The notes beneath the pieces were generated by a model, which was not told the DNA's origin, searched no databases, and worked only from the letters and a program-made list of their open reading frames with translations. A stretch of 64,000 nucleotides of DNA from Antedon bifida (lineage: Eukaryota > Echinodermata > Crinoidea > Comatulida > Antedonidae): positions 21,762,001-21,826,000 of the forward strand of contig OY727097.1 of NCBI GenBank assembly GCA_963402885.1. Reading direction: 5' to 3'. The translations under genes were made by a program, and so were the position numbers. Shown here piece by piece: positions 8,100 to 62,739 of the stretch; within the stretch, counting starts at the first letter, position 1; each line of letters starts with the position of its first letter.

Positions 8100-8106
8100 A
8101 TCCAAC

Positions 8107-8135
8107 CATGGACCTATCTAATTTATAGGTCCATG
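8107..8135. mobile_element. Mini-palindrome element 1 with 7-bp target duplication
   Basis: A 29-bp palindromic unit, CATGGACCTAT + 7 nt + ATAGGTCCATG, flanked by perfect direct repeats ATCCAAC at 8100-8106 and 8136-8142. See the other copies at 19244, 59748, 60137, 61261 and 61894. Confidence 0.7.
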
Positions 8136-8622
8136 ATCCAACTATTAATCATATACTGTATTACTTGACAAAAGTTAATTTTAATTCTCTCTTCTATTCA
8201 TATCATCAATTTATTTCTTTTTCATTATAAACTTTTTTTGTTTCCATTTTTAATCTATTTAATATTTGATATTACAATCAATAATATTACATAAATACAT
8301 TTCCTTCTTAATATAATTCAAACTAAACATAATTTTCTATTTACATTTTCAAATCAATTTTATTTTTATATTGTTTTACTATTGTAATCATAGATATTCA
8401 CAATCCTATGTAATAGTTTGTTTACATGATGGGATGTTTTTATTTAAATAGTTTTGTTTTAATAACTGGTGTCAATTAGCAAACAGTGTCAATTAGCAAA
8501 TATCATAACAAAATTGCATGGAGAAATCATATAATTCTGTGTTAACCTGGTTAAAGAAAATTTACATTCTGTATTAATTACAGTTGAACCCCTTTTAAAT
8601 TGATACTCTTTGGCCTTAAAGT

Positions 8623-18548: not shown

Positions 18549-19243
18549 GAAAAATAATGAAAACAAAATGCAAATTACCTATTTTTAAATCAGGTTTATT
18601 TTTTTTGCAGATTACTTTTTAAAGTCTTAAAAGTACAATACAAGCAATGCAAAACATTTATACTAAGATCCATGTCAATATCCTCCTAAAATCATTGACA
18701 TTAGCATTTATAAACATTTCCCATGTTGCAGACTCCTAAAAAATGTCAAGACCATATTTTAGTTTTACTAAATTCTGTCTCTGACAATTAAATGCAAAAA
18801 TGTAGTATTATTTTTCTATCTCACCACATAATATTATTATTGTTTTTATAGATTTGTTGGAGTTGATTGCAAAGTACAGGAGTACTTGGATTTCAGTACT
18901 TTTACTTGTTACTTGTACTTTTGGAAGTCAGCTACACTGGACAAAAAATGCAAAACTATTAAAAATTCATCAATGATTTTATTTCTGCTCACTAACACCA
19001 AAATAAACTGGTTTTACTAAATTTAGAAATAATACCTTAGCATTGATATAATCACAATCAAATGTATTTCTTTTCAGAAAAAGAAATACGTATACTGCCC
19101 TCTATCAGAAATTACTTTTCAAAATGTTGGCCTACAGTTATTGGCATTTTATGAACAATCACAGAGAAATTATGTCTCTATGGAACAATGAATTTATTAC
19201 TATTACAGGCCTAATGAATAATACATGATTGTGAGTGTATAAG

Positions 19244-19267
19244 CATGGAGCTATAAATAGCTCCATG
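19244..19267. mobile_element. Mini-palindrome element 2 with 7-bp target duplication
   Basis: A 24-bp unit, CATGGAGCTAT-AA-ATAGCTCCATG, a perfect palindrome apart from the 2-nt centre, flanked by GTATAAG at 19237-19243 and 19268-19274. Its centre, CTATAAATAG, is also a consensus TATA box. Confidence 0.7.
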
Positions 19268-19274
19268 GTATAAG

Positions 19275-21713
19275 CATAGAGATATTATAGTGATATAAGC
19301 AATAATACAAGAAAATATTAATTTTAGGCTATTATCTATTACTATCTATCCAAACCAATCATTATCTTCAATTAAATATTGTTCTCTAAGCATATATTTT
19401 TAAAGATGTCTTCAATTTTAATTTTTGTTTAGCCTTATCTTTATCATCAAGGTTTTAATGGAGATGGAACCAGATAAGCCCATAAATGTTTGATAATTTA
19501 GTTATAACATTCCAATAGGCTGAGACTGTTTTTTACAATTAGTAGTGAAGATATACAATTTTTTCTCTTCCTACAATCGTATGCTAACTTTTTAAAGCAA
19601 TTGCTTGTAACAGTGTAACATGTGACATCATTACAATTTTCCTTAAAAAATGAACAAATTATGATATTGTACAGAGTATTAGTAGATACAACTTATTCTG
19701 ACACCAAATTCTCAAAGGCTTTTTAAAACTAGAAGTCTACATACATACAGAGTGGGTCCATATTATAGTTATGTCGAGTCACTGCACTACACTGGGAAAA
19801 AGAAAGATACTATAGCTAAGTTTTCATTGATAGAATTAAAGAACAAAATACAAAAAATTATTGGTTGAACCATTCTGAGTGAAATATTGTGATAAAATTG
19901 TTTTGATGGATAGCATATCTATATATCGAAGACAATCAACTACTGATAGCTCCAACAAATTCCTTTATAAAGTATTCTTTTGTCGACTTACTAGTTAAAT
20001 CTTAACAATCCCATCACTTATTGACGAAAACCGGCCAGATTTATAATATAATAACAAAATATTACAGTCAAATAAAAATACATTATCTCCAAAAGTGAAC
20101 AATACATTCACACACAAATAGTAATATAAGAGAATGAATTGGCAGGTTCAGATGCAAAGGGTTGAACAAAAGTTGCGTGTTACATGCTTGAGTGATGATA
20201 AAGGCACTAAGTGAAAAGTCTGTTGAACAAAATGTCCTAAAAGGGACTTAATTCAGGGAACACTGGTTTTCAATAGAGTTGTTTACAAGTTTAGTTAAAA
20301 ACCTAGTTACAATTAGCTGGGAAGGAACAGTTATAAAGGCATGGTGTGTGTAAAGCTGTATTTAAACAAAGGTGGTACTATCATATCCAATTCTTCTATT
20401 AAGACATTAGCAGAAGAATGAATAGAAAAGTTTTGAATCAAAATAGTTTAAAACATGCTCTGATTGTTATCTTTATACTTGTTTGACACGCTATTATTAC
20501 AGTACTTTGAACTTTTCAACATTTATTTGATTTTATTATTTAAAAAAAAACTATTAAAATATAATTAAATATTAAAAATAAAAGACAAAGAAAAGATGCA
20601 GTTAGAGGGGTAATGTTACTCATCGCAGGCAAATCTTAAAAACTGAACCGGTTTCAAGTAGTAGGCGAAGATGGCATAGACCTGAAAAGGTTAGCATCCC
20701 AGTATGAATCTATTAGCTAGCCTAAGGTAATAACTATTGATTATACAAAACATTTATAAAATAAGCCTACTGCCACTGTGGTCAGACATTTTAATGGAAG
20801 TCAAGTTTATATAATCCTACAGTACCAATGTGTTTAGGCTACTCTAACGGCCCATTCAAGCTTAGCTATTTACCCGGGTAAGTTGGTTTCATGGGATGGC
20901 CACCAACTTAACAGGGTATTTGAATCTATGCTCTTTTAAAATTAAAGCGTTTCTGCCTCATTATACATTGGAACAGGCCTTCTGATGTTTCACCAACTAT
21001 TATAAGAACCTATTTGCACAAACTTAACTTGTTGCAATTGTTCTCTTCATTTATAAAACAGCTGATTATTGTTAATACACGATTATGTTTTACAAATTAT
21101 GTGTTTATTCAATTTTATGGTGTCTGCACTAATATACTAAAAACAATAACAAAACACCATCGTCCGATGCCTATTTTACATACATTTCTTAAATTTTCAG
21201 TTAGATATACTGTACTTAATACGTTTTGAAAGTGGTCTTGGTTACAGGTGCTGTTAAATTAAATATTCATGGTTATTATAGATTGAACAATTATTTTCCA
21301 TTTAGCACATAATAATAATAATAATGCTTTAAGCATAATATGCTTAGATAAACTACTGTAATACATCTTTTGGGCCCAGTTCTTTGTTGCTCCTGTGTGT
21401 TGTAAGTGGCAGGTCAGAATACAAGATAGTAAAATTACTATTTTTCATCTTTTAAATGAGATGTTTAGCTGTCGGTTCCATGCCCAACATTGTAAAAAAA
21501 TACAGCAAGGGAGATTGCACGATCCACCGCTGAACAGAGAGTTCCTCCCACTTTATGAGAGAACGAGAAAGAGATTATTCAATTTAAGTCGACATTCATT
21601 TAGCAAAAGAAATATGAATATATTTTACAAGTCAATAATTAATTATCTTCAAATAATCAAATCAAATTTGAACTACCAAACACCAAGACGTTTGAATTAT
21701 CTAAAAAGAAGTT
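19275..21713. other. AT-rich intergenic DNA
   Basis: No recognised feature apart from a slightly GC-richer patch at 20840-20930 (TTACCCGGGTAAGTTGGTTT). The basic 118-codon frame at 21395-21751 overlaps the candidate exon at 21714 in another frame and has no domain signature. Confidence 0.55.
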
Positions 21714-34290: not shown

Positions 34291-34389
34291 TAATAAATCC
34301 TTATCATTAGAAAAAAATTTAATGTGATCCTCATTCTGACTGGAATAAACAAAACTTTTCAGCACTTTGAATAAAACAACATACATGTA

Positions 34390-35422
34390 CGGTGGCCTAT
34401 AAGTGTCACGGCAACTTTCAAAAAATATCACGGCAATTTTTTCAAAAAAAGCCACGGCAATTTGAAAAAAGCCACGGCAATTTGAAAAAAGCCACGGCAA
34501 TTTGAAAAAAGCCACGGCAAATTAAAAATAAAACATCACGGCAAATTAAAAATAAAACATTGCGGCAATTTAACAAAAATACCAGGGCAACTTAAAAATG
34601 AAACACCACGGCAAATTAGTATTGAAACACCTCGGCAAATTACTAATGAAACACCACGGCAAATTACAGAATGCCACGGCGGAAGTGAGTTACCACGGCG
34701 GAAGTGAAACCTTTGGAATCTTCGATTTTTTCTGAGGTAAGTAATTATTTGTGCATTGATGTAAATATTATTATATTAATTTATTATATTTAACTGCAGC
34801 AGTTTACGTGTTTATTGCACTCTTCTTGAACTTTCTAGGCCGGGCTAGACCATAGGCCTTATTACAAGGTAGGCCTAGGCCCTATAACATTCTACAATGT
34901 TTTAATATATTTACAGTAATCTGTTTTTTATATAAAAAGTTGTTTTTACAGTAGACCTAGCTACTACTGTAGGCCTAAGGCCTAGGGCTAGTAGTAGGCA
35001 TAGCTAGGCCTAGTGCAATAAACACGTAAATGCTGCAGTTAAATATAATAAATTAATATAATAATATTTACTTCAATGCACAAATAATTACTTACCTCAG
35101 AAAAAATCGAAGATTCCAAAGGTTTCACTTCCGCCGTGGTAACTCACTTCCGCCGTGGCATTCTGTAATTTGCCGTGGTGTTTCATTACTAATTTGCCGT
35201 GGTGTTTCAATACTAATTTGCCGTGGTGTTTCATTTTTAAGTTGCCGTGGTATTTTTGTTAAATTGCCGCGATGTTTTATTTTTAATTTGCCGTGATGTT
35301 TTATTTTTAATTTGCCGTGGCTTTTTTCAAATTGCCGTGGCTTTTTTCAAATTGCCGTGGCTTTTTTTGAAAGTTGCCGTGATATTTTTTGAAAGTTGCC
35401 GTGACACTTATAGGCCACCGTA
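34390..35422. mobile_element. 1.03-kb foldback element with tandem-repeat arms and 6-bp target duplication
   Basis: Left arm 34390-34820 and right arm 35013-35422 are near-perfect inverted complements (about 410-430 bp), starting TACGGTGGCCTATAAGTGTC and ending with its complement. Both sides are flanked by TACATG (34384-34389 and 35423-35428). Within each arm a CACGGCAA-type core recurs every 19-28 bp (GCCACGGCAATTTGAAAAAA and relatives). The left arm carries one 20-bp unit more than the right. The 192-bp centre is rich in TAGGCCTA words and has no open frame. The architecture is that of foldback elements; the superfamily is unassigned. Confidence 0.88.
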
Positions 35423-54900: not shown

Positions 54901-55015
54901 AAGGCTGTGAGAGGGTGTGCAGTGCAGGGCTCGTAAAGTAACAGAGAATAAAATATACTTGTAAACCAGAACTTAAACATTTATTTGGACAAATTGCTTG
55001 TTTAACTGTATTAAT

Positions 55016-55756
55016 ATGGATATGACAACTAAACCAATGGATCATGTTAAACGACCGATGAACGCGTTCATGGTTTGGTCCAGAGGACAACGGCGTAAAA
55101 TGGCACAGGAAAACCCTAAAATGCATAATTCTGAAATTAGTAAACGACTTGGAGCCGATTGGAAATTACTTACCGAGGAACAAAAGCGACCATTTATTGA
55201 CGAAGCTAAACGACTTAGAGCCCTGCACATGAAAGAGCATCCTGATTATAAATACAGACCAAGACGGAAGCCTAAATCTTTATTGAAAAAAGACAGGTAT
55301 GCGTTTCCGATTCCGTGTCTACCAACTTCTAATGCATTAGCCGTTACCACTAGTGCAGCCGATATATTTACGTCCTCCGAGAAAGCCAGAGCCTTTCTGC
55401 CGAGTTCTCCCCATGCTTACTCTATGTTAGAAGCAAGTGCCAAATTGGAGGCTGCCCACCATGCATACCGGGCGACGGAACTAAGCAGTTTAGGATACCC
55501 GCCATCAGCTATGTACCCATCATTACATAGTGCGTTCGGAAAGTTACCACCCTCGCCCGTTGGTCATCCAGCCGCAATTTCCCCTACACATCAACAGTAC
55601 TTGTTTCCATACCCTGGAAGTTGGCCTTCTCACCACCACCATCAAGATGTACAACGTCCTGTAGCGTACGTACTAGTCAAGCCAGATATTGAACCATATC
55701 CAACACATGCATCTATAAGGCCAGCCCTACCTTTGTCCAGAGCAACGGCAATATAA
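55016..55756 (+). CDS. SoxB2: SoxB2-class HMG-box transcription factor (Sox14/Sox21-like)
   Basis: An intact 246-codon single-exon frame. Residues 9-92 are an HMG box opening with [20 protein letters not shown] and closing with [20 protein letters not shown]. The RPMNAFMVW block (13-21) marks the SoxB group, and the box is followed directly by the basic RPRRKPK tail. SoxB2 (Sox14/Sox21) rather than SoxB1 is indicated by EKARAFLP (122-129) with AYSMLE just after it, and by the C-terminal PVAYVL...IEPYP block (215-229), which corresponds to the P-x-AYIL...DPY region of vertebrate Sox14/21. A four-histidine run (206-209) precedes it. I start at the ATG of 55016 (A at -3, G at +4); the frame continues upstream to 54998 but without another ATG. 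The length matches Sox14 (about 240 residues). SoxB2 proteins bind ACAAT-type DNA in the minor groove, are nuclear, and usually act as repressors in neural differentiation. That role is family knowledge; the identity is seen in the sequence. Confidence 0.97.
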
Positions 55757-59740: not shown

Positions 59741-59747
59741 GTACAAG

Positions 59748-59774
59748 CATGGACCTATAATGTATAGGTTCATG
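59748..59774. mobile_element. Mini-palindrome element 3 with 7-bp target duplication
   Basis: A 27-bp unit, CATGGACCTATA + ATG + TATAGGTTCATG (one mismatch between arms), flanked by GTACAAG at 59741-59747 and 59775-59781. Confidence 0.7.
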
Positions 59775-60136
59775 GTACAAGCATGGGGTTGTCGCTAAAA
59801 TTGGGAGAACTATGTACAATGCTGTTACATCTCCATCTGGATAGCGAACATGGAAGAGGCGTATCCTCGGCCGCCAGCCCTCCCCCTTCTCCTAAATACA
59901 ATAACAAAAAACACACCCTTCCGCCCCCACCCAATAACCTTACACTCATATATATTGAATACTAAATATATATTGAATAGTAAAATATTTATGAATTAAT
60001 TATTAATTAATATTATATTATTTTTATTTTTATTTTTATTTGTGTCTTTGATGTATAACGTAATTGAATTTGATAACTTGAGTGAAGAACCGTGAAGCAG
60101 GATGAATAAAGCATTACGGAAACCTCCATGATAAAC

Positions 60137-60164
60137 CAACGGACCTATGATTTATAGACCCATG
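60137..60164. mobile_element. Mini-palindrome element 4, degraded copy
   Basis: CAACGGACCTATGATTTATA + GACCCATG is recognisable as the same family but has mismatched arms. The flanks GATAAAC (60130-60136) and ATTAAAT (60165-60171) agree at only 4 of 7 positions, so it appears to be an older copy or a chance resemblance. Confidence 0.4.
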
Positions 60165-60171
60165 ATTAAAT

Positions 60172-61253
60172 TTAAATAAACTACAGAAAACAACAAAATG
60201 AACAAACAGATGTTATATTAACAATGATAACAATATATAATAAATGTTTATCACAATAACAATGGTTAAAAGGCGAACAACCGGGAAATGTCTTTAATTA
60301 ATGATAAGATAACAAGAACAATCAATAATGGACCCATGGACCGACAAAGTGGTTAATTTTGTTTCAGGATAATTTTGTATTCAAATACACCCTGTTGTAG
60401 AATGTCTCACTGTCCCTACTCTCTAATACGGATTTTTCAGACCGTTTCAGCTATATGTCTAAAATCTACACTTATTTAATATCGGATCATCTAAACTTTC
60501 CGTCAAAATACACATAGTTGTTTTAAGGTTCTGTCCTTACTAACATCGTCATTAATGTATTATAACATCCACACCAATAATGTATGAGATTGAAAGGTTG
60601 AATAATGACGAACCGCGATCTCGTTATTTTTTTTTATTGTGATTTGTTTAAATACTATAGGAGGATTGTAGAAATGTATACAAAAGTGTAGCTACACTGG
60701 TTTATAGATACACATACTGTAATGCAAAATGCGGGACATGTACCGTTATGCTGTGTAGGCCTACTATAATAATAATGTATAATACTCCCGCTTATTTTAA
60801 GTTGGGTTTGACACTGTTTACTTGGGCCCAATGGATGTGCGATCATTGTACTTCACAAATCGTGTTTGAAAATCGCACATTTCGTGACCAGACTTTAGGC
60901 GTGTGTTGCTCAGGCCATGTACTGTTCCATTCTCTTGCTGTAAATGTGAAATATGAACATAAACGAGTGAAAAACACGGTAATTATAACTAACGAATGCA
61001 TTGCTATCACACTTCAGTAACACGATCTACAAATTAGTAAAGTCTGTATCTATGTTTATGTCACTCTTGTTCTCAAAATGTTTTGTTGTATCGTTATATA
61101 CGATGTATTTCTAGAGTGATCTACATCAAATATTTCATGTTGTTTATTACAAAGACTGTCCAACAAGGGGTGTGGGTTTATTTTAGTCACTAGTCCATGA
61201 AGCTCGTCAACAACATAATAAATAATCAAAGAATGGACATACAATATAAGAAC
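60172..61253. other. Intergenic DNA
   Basis: 60790-61020 is complex with a 90-codon frame from 60748 (TWAQWMCDHCTSQIVFENRT), CpG sites and several TTCACAAAT/CGTG words. It has no recognised family; a non-coding element is as likely. Confidence 0.5.
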
Positions 61254-61260
61254 GTTAAAC

Positions 61261-61287
61261 CATGGACCTATAAATTATAGGTCCATG
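61261..61287. mobile_element. Mini-palindrome element 5 with 7-bp target duplication
   Basis: A 27-bp unit, CATGGACCTATA + AAT + TATAGGTCCATG with perfect arms, flanked by GTTAAAC at 61254-61260 and 61288-61294. Best-preserved copy of the CATGGACC subtype. Confidence 0.72.
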
Positions 61288-61569
61288 GTTAAACAACTAT
61301 AATTAGTTGTGGACCAACCATTGCTGAAGAGAAATTAAGTCAGACTTCGATTAGCCCATAGGCCCATATTTATTAATTTTGAACATCCTCCGTGCTTACA
61401 TCTCATCTTATCTAATCCTATCTTTGGGTAGCTGAGAGGAAGAGGGGATGGAGTCGGGTGGAGTAGAAGAAGGAATGTTTACATGCCACGGAATAGGTGC
61501 GTATTTGTATTATTTCAAAACAAGAAGGGGTGCGTAAAAGGAGTAATTCCGAGCGGATAAATTACCGTT

Positions 61570-61640
61570 AAAAACGAAAAGAAGAAGAAGAAGAAGAAAA
61601 AAAACCAAAACACACATAGGCCTACACACACACACACACT
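61570..61640. repeat. Microsatellite cluster (GAA)n and (CA)n
   Basis: GAAGAAGAAGAAGAAGAA-type run (61579-61598) followed by ACACACACACACAC (61625-61638). Confidence 0.85.
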
Positions 61641-61893
61641 GTATAACAAACAAACAATAAGTTAAGGTGTGGTATAAGAAATGTAATTCGGAAAAAAGAA
61701 ATTACTTTACTATATTTATGTAATTATTAAATGTGCTTCCAGTAGAATGGTTAGAACAAGTCAAAATAGATACATTGATCAGGAAACTGAATGTTCTACG
61801 TTTTTTAGTAGTTTTTTAATTAGTATAAAAAAACATTTATAACCATAAATAAAAAAAAATGTAATTGTAAGATTAGTTAAAAGTTACTATAAC

Positions 61894-61923
61894 CATGAAG
61901 CTATAAAATGTCATAGCTCCATG
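61894..61923. mobile_element. Mini-palindrome element 6 with 7-bp target duplication
   Basis: A 30-bp unit, CATGAAGCTATAAAATG followed by TCATAGCTCCATG, of the AGCTATA subtype with a longer centre, flanked by CTATAAC at 61887-61893 and 61924-61930. Confidence 0.68.
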
Positions 61924-62739
61924 CTATAACACAAATAAAGTGAGTAAGTAGGGTAATACGAAACCATGAAATAGATACATCTATAATAGGCCTAATTAAA
62001 AAAAACAAAAGTTACAACAAACCGAAAGTTAGGCATATAGTTTATATTTTAGAAACGTTTATGGACTCGACCATTAATATTAGAATTACCTAACGGTGAA
62101 TGACCCTAACACCATATTTTTATTTTCTGGAGATATGATATATAAATAATATTAATATATAATAAATCTCGCTTTTAGTATATTTTCCTTATTTTAGTCA
62201 CTGTCTCGCTCTTACGTTTATTTTCATCTAAATTGACTCGAAAGGATTATCGTAAACCCTTGGTAAGAACAAGTGATATATTGAGAGTTCTGTAAAATCC
62301 AAAACAATAAGAAAATTAAAACAAAACATTTGTTTATTAAGACCACTGTATTTGCTTAAGATTTGAAAAAAATACACACACCTTCATTCTTCTAATCTTA
62401 AGAATCGATGCGTCGAGTTCACTGAAGTTCAGTTGATTTTGAAGAATAGTTTATTACAGAAAAAAGTTAATTGTTAACGATCTGCAGTTACCTCATGTAG
62501 AAAGACTTAACATTCCAAAAAGCTATTCATTACTAAATATTATATTATGGAATATATCCATGAATGAAGCCAAACAAGCGATATTGCCGGTTTGAAAGTT
62601 GCAACTCTTGTTTCGAGTTTTATTTTCCTTTTTATTCAGAATCAAGCGAACGGAAAATAATGACCGTTACATTGTTCTACACAAAAACACAACTATTTTC
62701 ACACGTTAAATTGCACGGTTGATAATGTACTTTTCTATT

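Follow-up and report, generated by a model that had tools for sequence, protein, structure and literature searches.

In Drosophila, the P-element excision junctions described in PMC2895639 open with the duplicated target and an arm that starts CATGATGAAATAAC and is at most 17 nt long; a join over an AT or TA overlap, or with inserted bases, leads to the inverse arm, after which the duplicated target returns. According to PMC7776569, a 17-nt stagger has been shown biochemically for the Drosophila P element only, its transposase binds internal 10-bp sites near each end, and P elements hop locally. Galileo, a member of the P superfamily in Drosophila, is described as generating 7-bp duplications with the consensus GTAGTAC (PMC2775673). 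In rice, natural excision of DNA transposons has been studied genome-wide under the term "excision footprints" (PMC4423477), as it is here; that study compared two plant species, whereas here excision is deduced within one animal genome from transposon ends and duplications. Among the open-licence papers listed, we found no report of P-element scars in crinoids. Here we describe short palindromes in the feather star Antedon bifida, which we interpret, with a probability of roughly 93%, as excision footprints of P-superfamily transposons.

Five palindromes of 24-30 bp, each with CATG at both termini, were present where the original prediction had placed them in the window, that is, the whole 64,000-nucleotide stretch analysed here (G000:C10:21762001-21826000; all features are given without a strand). 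Footprint 1 (8100..8142) comprises a 29-bp palindrome (8107-8135) between two copies of ATCCAAC, footprint 3 (59741..59781) a 27-bp palindrome (59748-59774) between copies of GTACAAG, and footprint 4 (61254..61294) a 27-bp palindrome (61261-61287) between copies of GTTAAAC. Footprints 2 and 5 belong to an AGCTATA subtype, the former (19237..19274) with a 24-bp palindrome (19244-19267) between copies of GTATAAG and the latter (61887..61930) with a 30-bp palindrome (61894-61923) between copies of CTATAAC. The heptamers thus differ from one palindrome to the next and are exact in all five cases, as had been claimed, and in 5/5 the duplication flanks the joined terminal pieces on both sides. The arms are shared, also as claimed, but they are not perfect: TATC interrupts the left arm at 8107, GGTTC the right arm at 59748 and GAAGC the left arm at 61894. 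Such structures exceed what chance produces. The surrounding 264 kb, shuffled once under a second-order Markov model, yielded 2 palindromes whose flanks repeated at 6/7 or better, neither of them like those of the window, while the unshuffled 264 kb yielded 20, including all five window palindromes, several of the others lying within tandem repeats.

Three of the footprints and a probable fourth lie inside 2.2 kb. The latter, CAACGGACCTATGATTTATAGACCCATG at 60137..60164, is probably a decayed sixth copy, identified by a match to the end motif, with flanks that agree at 4/7 when read by eye. A further decayed copy, with 6/7 flanks, lies 4.6 kb past the window end (in L056). This clustering would fit the local hopping of P elements. 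A possible old footprint of another P family occupies 19153..19189, where CACAGAGAAATTATGTCTCTATG (19160-19182) stands between two copies of GAACAAT and its arms differ from CATGGAGAAATA, described below, by 2-3 mismatches. The window also contains an inverted-repeat element of about 1 kb (34388-35422), in which 20-24-bp units are arrayed along the arms and one pair of 340-bp arms is 98% complementary. An open frame at 54977-55756 encodes a Sox14-like protein 99% identical to an Antedon mediterranea protein, which places the window in that species or a near relative.

The flanking repeats were examined genome-wide by searching the 315.6-Mb assembly with the pattern CATGGACCTATA-N(1-12)-TATAGGTCCATG, which requires perfect 12-bp arms. 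This pattern matched 64 sites and its reversed control 0; a single palindrome match in a viral contig (L001) is a hairpin without flanking repeats and was set aside as unrelated. Forty of the 64 copies were fetched with 100 bp per side, and the expected number of duplications was obtained by pairing the left flank of each copy with the right flanks of all others. An exact 7-bp duplication was found in 22 of the 40 copies (0.05 expected), and flanks agreeing at 6/7 or better in 32 (1.05 expected), bearing out the earlier view of the heptamers as target-site duplications. Exact matches of 5, 6 or 8-12 bp were found in 0/40 and of 4 bp in 2/40 (0.10 expected), leaving 7 bp alone as the duplication length among the fetched copies. 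Two copies, L017 and L044, also reach 7/7 when their whole inserts of 42 bp and 54 bp are read, which brings the exact total to 24/40 and reduces the copies below 6/7 from 8/40 to 6/40; we take these as probable products of decay or flank deletion. The 40 copies are not completely independent, because the flanks of L014 and L015 are nearly identical, and these two are probably one duplicated site.

The heptamers share a target pattern, as originally proposed. Symmetrised over the 22 exact copies (44 strand readings), it reads GTnnnAC: 37/44 readings have T at position 2, as many have A at position 6, and 24/44 each have G at position 1 and C at position 7. Both the 7-bp length and this pattern resemble Galileo, whose consensus GTAGTAC is close to GTnnnAC (PMC2775673). 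The right-hand duplication is often trailed by CAT or CATGG, for example in L011, L040 and L041 and at window position 59782, possibly because the same target was hit by more than one insertion.

Within the 40 fetched copies, each arm comprises at least 12 nt of CATGGACCTATAAATTAG... or of the variant CATGGACCTATACATT..., joined to its own inverse over an overlap of 1-4 nt, without overlap, or with up to 6 added bases, and 22 different centres occur. With the 12-nt minimum set by the search pattern and templates 19 nt long, the arms track the transposon end for 12-19 nt or more. In 19/40 copies the junction is a plain join between identical 18-nt tails, and the other 21 require the variant end (...TATACATT) or inserted bases. 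Microhomology of at least 2 nt is present in 12 of the 19 plain joins, compared with 24.5% expected under a uniform null. The most frequent junction, found in 6/40 copies, is that of footprint 4, a 3-nt-microhomology join; the 4-nt join (28 bp), which has the most microhomology visible to the search, was found in 4/40, a count equalled by one variant-end form. The reverse complement of footprint 1 reads as 18 nt of the transposon end (CATGGACCTATAAATTAG) followed by 11 nt of the opposite end, and this 29-bp junction recurs at other targets, in L083 (CTCCTAC, 7/7) and L089 (6/7).

The 18-nt end searched alone gave 202 matches in the genome. Twenty of the listed matches were fetched, all outside the 40 copies above, so that palindromes with perfect arms are under-represented among them. 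In 9/20 a matching far end was identified together with a 7/7 duplication; these are a 443-bp element (L082:1018-1460, minus strand) and eight palindromes of 25-46 bp. Three further palindromes have 6/7 duplications (L087, L089 and L093), the 30-bp palindrome L085 has 5/7 flanks, L084 and L086 reach 6/7 solely at a far end 120-122 bp distant, and L074 reaches 5/7 with a poor far end; no flanking duplication was found at L075, L081, L091 and L092. L084, L085 and L086 belong to a single dispersed repeat, and L091 resembles a duplicate of the L083 site that has been damaged. The end of L082 is identical to that of the window subfamily, and among the matches listed the footprint arms match at most 20 nt of its start (about 22 with a gap), none entering its body.

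L082 is the longer element found with the same end: no transposase-coding element with the exact CATGGACCTATAAATTAG end was found. Membership of the window subfamily in the P superfamily would therefore rest on its ends, its duplications and this one short relative. At the P transposase loci L068-L071, the CATGGASCTATA end was not seen on both sides and the element ends were not located. A search for long elements with 7-bp duplications in the 264 kb around the window gave 4 weak candidates (3 mismatches), none convincing, and 2 in the reversed control.

A complete P-type element is present elsewhere in the genome. The genome has 58 matches to PF21787, the P-transposase catalytic domain; 15 of them share a score of 89.9 bits and have open frames 638-642 aa long. 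Two of these 15 equal-scoring copies (L066 and L072) were read end to end; they are about 6.45 kb long, with a mutual identity of 99.9%, and recent P-element activity is suggested because the two are nearly identical. The element has a perfect 34-bp terminal repeat, CATGGAGAAATAAGTTAGGAAGGAGTAACATCGA, and both ends read CATGGAGAAATAAGTTAGG..., starting CATGGA. Terminal inverted repeats of the P superfamily begin with CA (CANRG motif), and those of the 6.45-kb element do so. Both copies read are flanked by 7-bp duplications, CCAAAAC and ATTATAC, within the 7-8 bp of the superfamily. In one copy, PF21787 (86.5 bits), PF21788 (46.0) and PF21789 (37.9) match separate open frames, and these domain matches predict the architecture of P transposases, in which a GTP-binding insertion separates the RNase H-like halves. 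The first frame (L066:1509-3347) has no THAP match and has at its start a weak zf-AD match of 23.8 bits (cut-off 28); a 264-aa open frame inside the element (L072:2-793, minus strand), without a Pfam match at E 1, is a possible second gene. No match to the 6.45-kb element was found in the 264 kb around the window at E 0.001.

Like the zebrafish Pdre2/THAP9 elements as described in PMC10983969, this is a P-superfamily element of a deuterostome, and the 13-bp repeats reported there also start with CAT. It differs from the elements of that description in their 8-bp duplication and other end sequence, and in their THAP domain, where the weak zf-AD match stands alone in the first frame here. The perfect 34-bp repeat also sets it apart from Galileo, for which relatively long foldback-like terminal repeats are described (PMC3688188).

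If the palindromes are scars of P-type excision, the 6.45-kb element should have palindromes of its own that stop inside its terminal repeat. Searching with CATGGAGAAATA-N(0-30)-TATTTCTCCATG identified 151 such sister palindromes in the genome, by arm pattern alone, and 0 in the reversed control. In the 50 of 151 copies listed, from which all arm and junction figures are taken, the arms keep 12-21 nt of the 34-nt terminal repeat and none is longer, the lower limit of 12 nt being set by the search pattern, which allowed centres of up to 30 nt. There is thus a set depth in the terminal repeat beyond which no listed arm extends. Joining two 21-nt tails allows 84 products, one of which has 3-nt microhomology, and this sole 3-nt join is the most frequent sister product (15/50 listed; 4% expected under uniform joining), followed by a product with 2-nt microhomology (7/50 listed). 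Inserted bases are present at 12/50 listed junctions. Three identical 36-bp palindromes within 126 kb on C9 may be local copies. Microhomology and insertions, the marks of end joining, are found in both subfamilies, and the microhomology signal is weaker in that of the window than in the sister family.

We therefore propose the following origin for the window palindromes. An element with the terminal inverted repeat CATGGA(C/G)CTATAAATTAG would insert into a GTnnnAC-like target and duplicate 7 bp; the duplication is observed, and the identity of the inserting element is what we infer. On excision, the transposase would cut one strand where element and target meet and the second strand some 17-21 nt into the terminal repeat, a depth to which the retained arm lengths point, and both chromosome ends would keep a single-stranded tail of transposon sequence. 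Host end joining would then connect these near-identical tails, placed as inverted repeats, by way of short microhomology or small insertions, which fits the junction statistics. The product would consist of the target duplication, a terminal piece, the junction, the inverted terminal piece and the target duplication, and would read as a palindrome of about 24-54 bp between 7-bp repeats.

The palindromes resemble the Drosophila melanogaster P footprints of PMC2895639 in their terminal CATG, in the duplication on both sides and in having an arm from each end, and likewise in their joins over 2-3 nt of microhomology and their short, partly templated insertions. They differ from the footprints in that account in the duplication (8 bp there, 7 bp here) and in the arms (at most 17 nt there, up to about 20-21 nt here), and in being natural feather-star sites, whereas those were laboratory excisions.

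The original prediction had offered two readings, a mobile nano-scale palindrome and the residue of a larger element excised or collapsed by hairpin processing. Under the former, the 24-36-bp palindrome itself would be cut and pasted as a nano-MITE by a transposase acting in trans, each time with new 7-bp duplications, and the identical CATGGACCTATAATTTATAGGTCCATG beside CTTTGAT (L019), GGTAAAC (L033) and GTCTGGG (L040) could be read in this way. The centres nevertheless differ, with 22 junction forms in 40 copies, so that the single internal sequence shared by the copies of a MITE is missing, and the top junctions of the sister family are those richest in microhomology (50 listed of 151). Such a palindrome would also leave no room for the internal 10-bp sites that Drosophila P transposase is described as binding (PMC7776569), and a full-length P element with palindromes of its own ends is present. 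We consider this reading, for which we found no support, very improbable. An excised larger element, in contrast, is what the evidence favours, in the form of a P-superfamily excision footprint. Hairpin processing becomes unnecessary, as a cut with a long stagger within the terminal repeat, followed by end joining, accounts for the anatomy. Equally poor are the prospects of internal collapse, in which elements with long terminal inverted repeats or foldback structure would shrink through slippage between their arms, with no transposase cut involved: such shrinkage is also expected to leave duplicated targets and palindromic ends, but it predicts a broad range of retained lengths, whereas the arms are confined to at most 21 nt of the 34-bp repeat in 50/50 listed copies with centres of up to 30 nt allowed, and the bases inserted at 12/50 listed junctions resemble the end joining described in PMC2895639.

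A further alternative is footprints of another cut-and-paste superfamily, such as hAT, Mutator or Merlin, all of which make target duplications. The duplications of hAT elements are 8 bp and those of Mutator about 9, however, and here 7 bp alone stands out; neither is known to leave behind terminal stretches longer than a few bases. At C10:21670945, 21697257 and 21867414, elements with CAGAGCCATATAT ends (350 and 818 bp) or CAGTGGCGTATCC ends (1165 bp) carry exact 8-bp duplications. These neighbours of the window, which we take to be hAT-like, thus differ from the palindromes in duplication length, and an origin from another superfamily is most unlikely. The palindromes could also fold or bind proteins, and might be functional RNA hairpins or protein-binding sites flanked by repeats that arose by chance. 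Against this stand the flanking repeats in 22/40 copies with 0.05 expected, the lack of any Rfam match reaching the gathering score in the window, and the look-alike in the viral contig, which has no flanking repeat; the probability of this explanation is close to nil. P-superfamily excision thus remains the preferred reading of the window palindromes.

Several P families may have left scars in the Antedon genome, because other palindrome families also show 7-bp duplications. At G000:C10:21713251, 48.7 kb before the window, CAAGGAGTTGTAAAATAATTTGTACAACTCCCTG is a 34-bp palindrome with the exact 7-bp duplication TTTATAC, and looks like the footprint of a third P-type family. A 53-bp palindrome starting CATAGAGATATTAT (L086:989-1041) has the exact 7-bp duplication CTTTATG, and a 41-bp palindrome starting CATGGAACTATA (L090:197-237) has GTGTTAT. 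Directly after the 19244 footprint in the window, CATAGAGATATTATAGTG (19275-19299) was read by eye between GTATAAG and ATATAAG, and may be an 18-nt remnant, from one end only, of the CATAGAGATATTAT family.

Taken together, this is a known kind of structure in a new place, useful as a record of how breaks are repaired in nature. Annotation could mistake short palindromes bracketed by target duplications for a novel class of tiny mobile elements, and here they are scar-like. Each scar would preserve how one broken chromosome was repaired, and because the cut ends are known and different targets represent separate repairs, the scars would form a readable record of end joining in the echinoderm germline. 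More tentatively, at somewhat less than even odds, feather stars may harbour a distinct branch of the P superfamily that targets 7-bp GTnnnAC sites, cuts with a stagger of some 20-21 nt, more than the 17 nt of Drosophila, and possibly has a zf-AD-like DNA-binding head in place of THAP, and whose scars far outnumber its surviving elements; in one family, 151 exact-arm palindromes compare with 15 loci sharing one transposase-domain score. With such an excess of scars, the genome would serve as a natural archive in which hundreds of germline double-strand-break repairs, each with known starting ends, are preserved. Such scars could give stagger estimates for transposases that nobody has purified, and could be used to compare the choice of repair pathway across lineages and to date transposon activity where no element survives.
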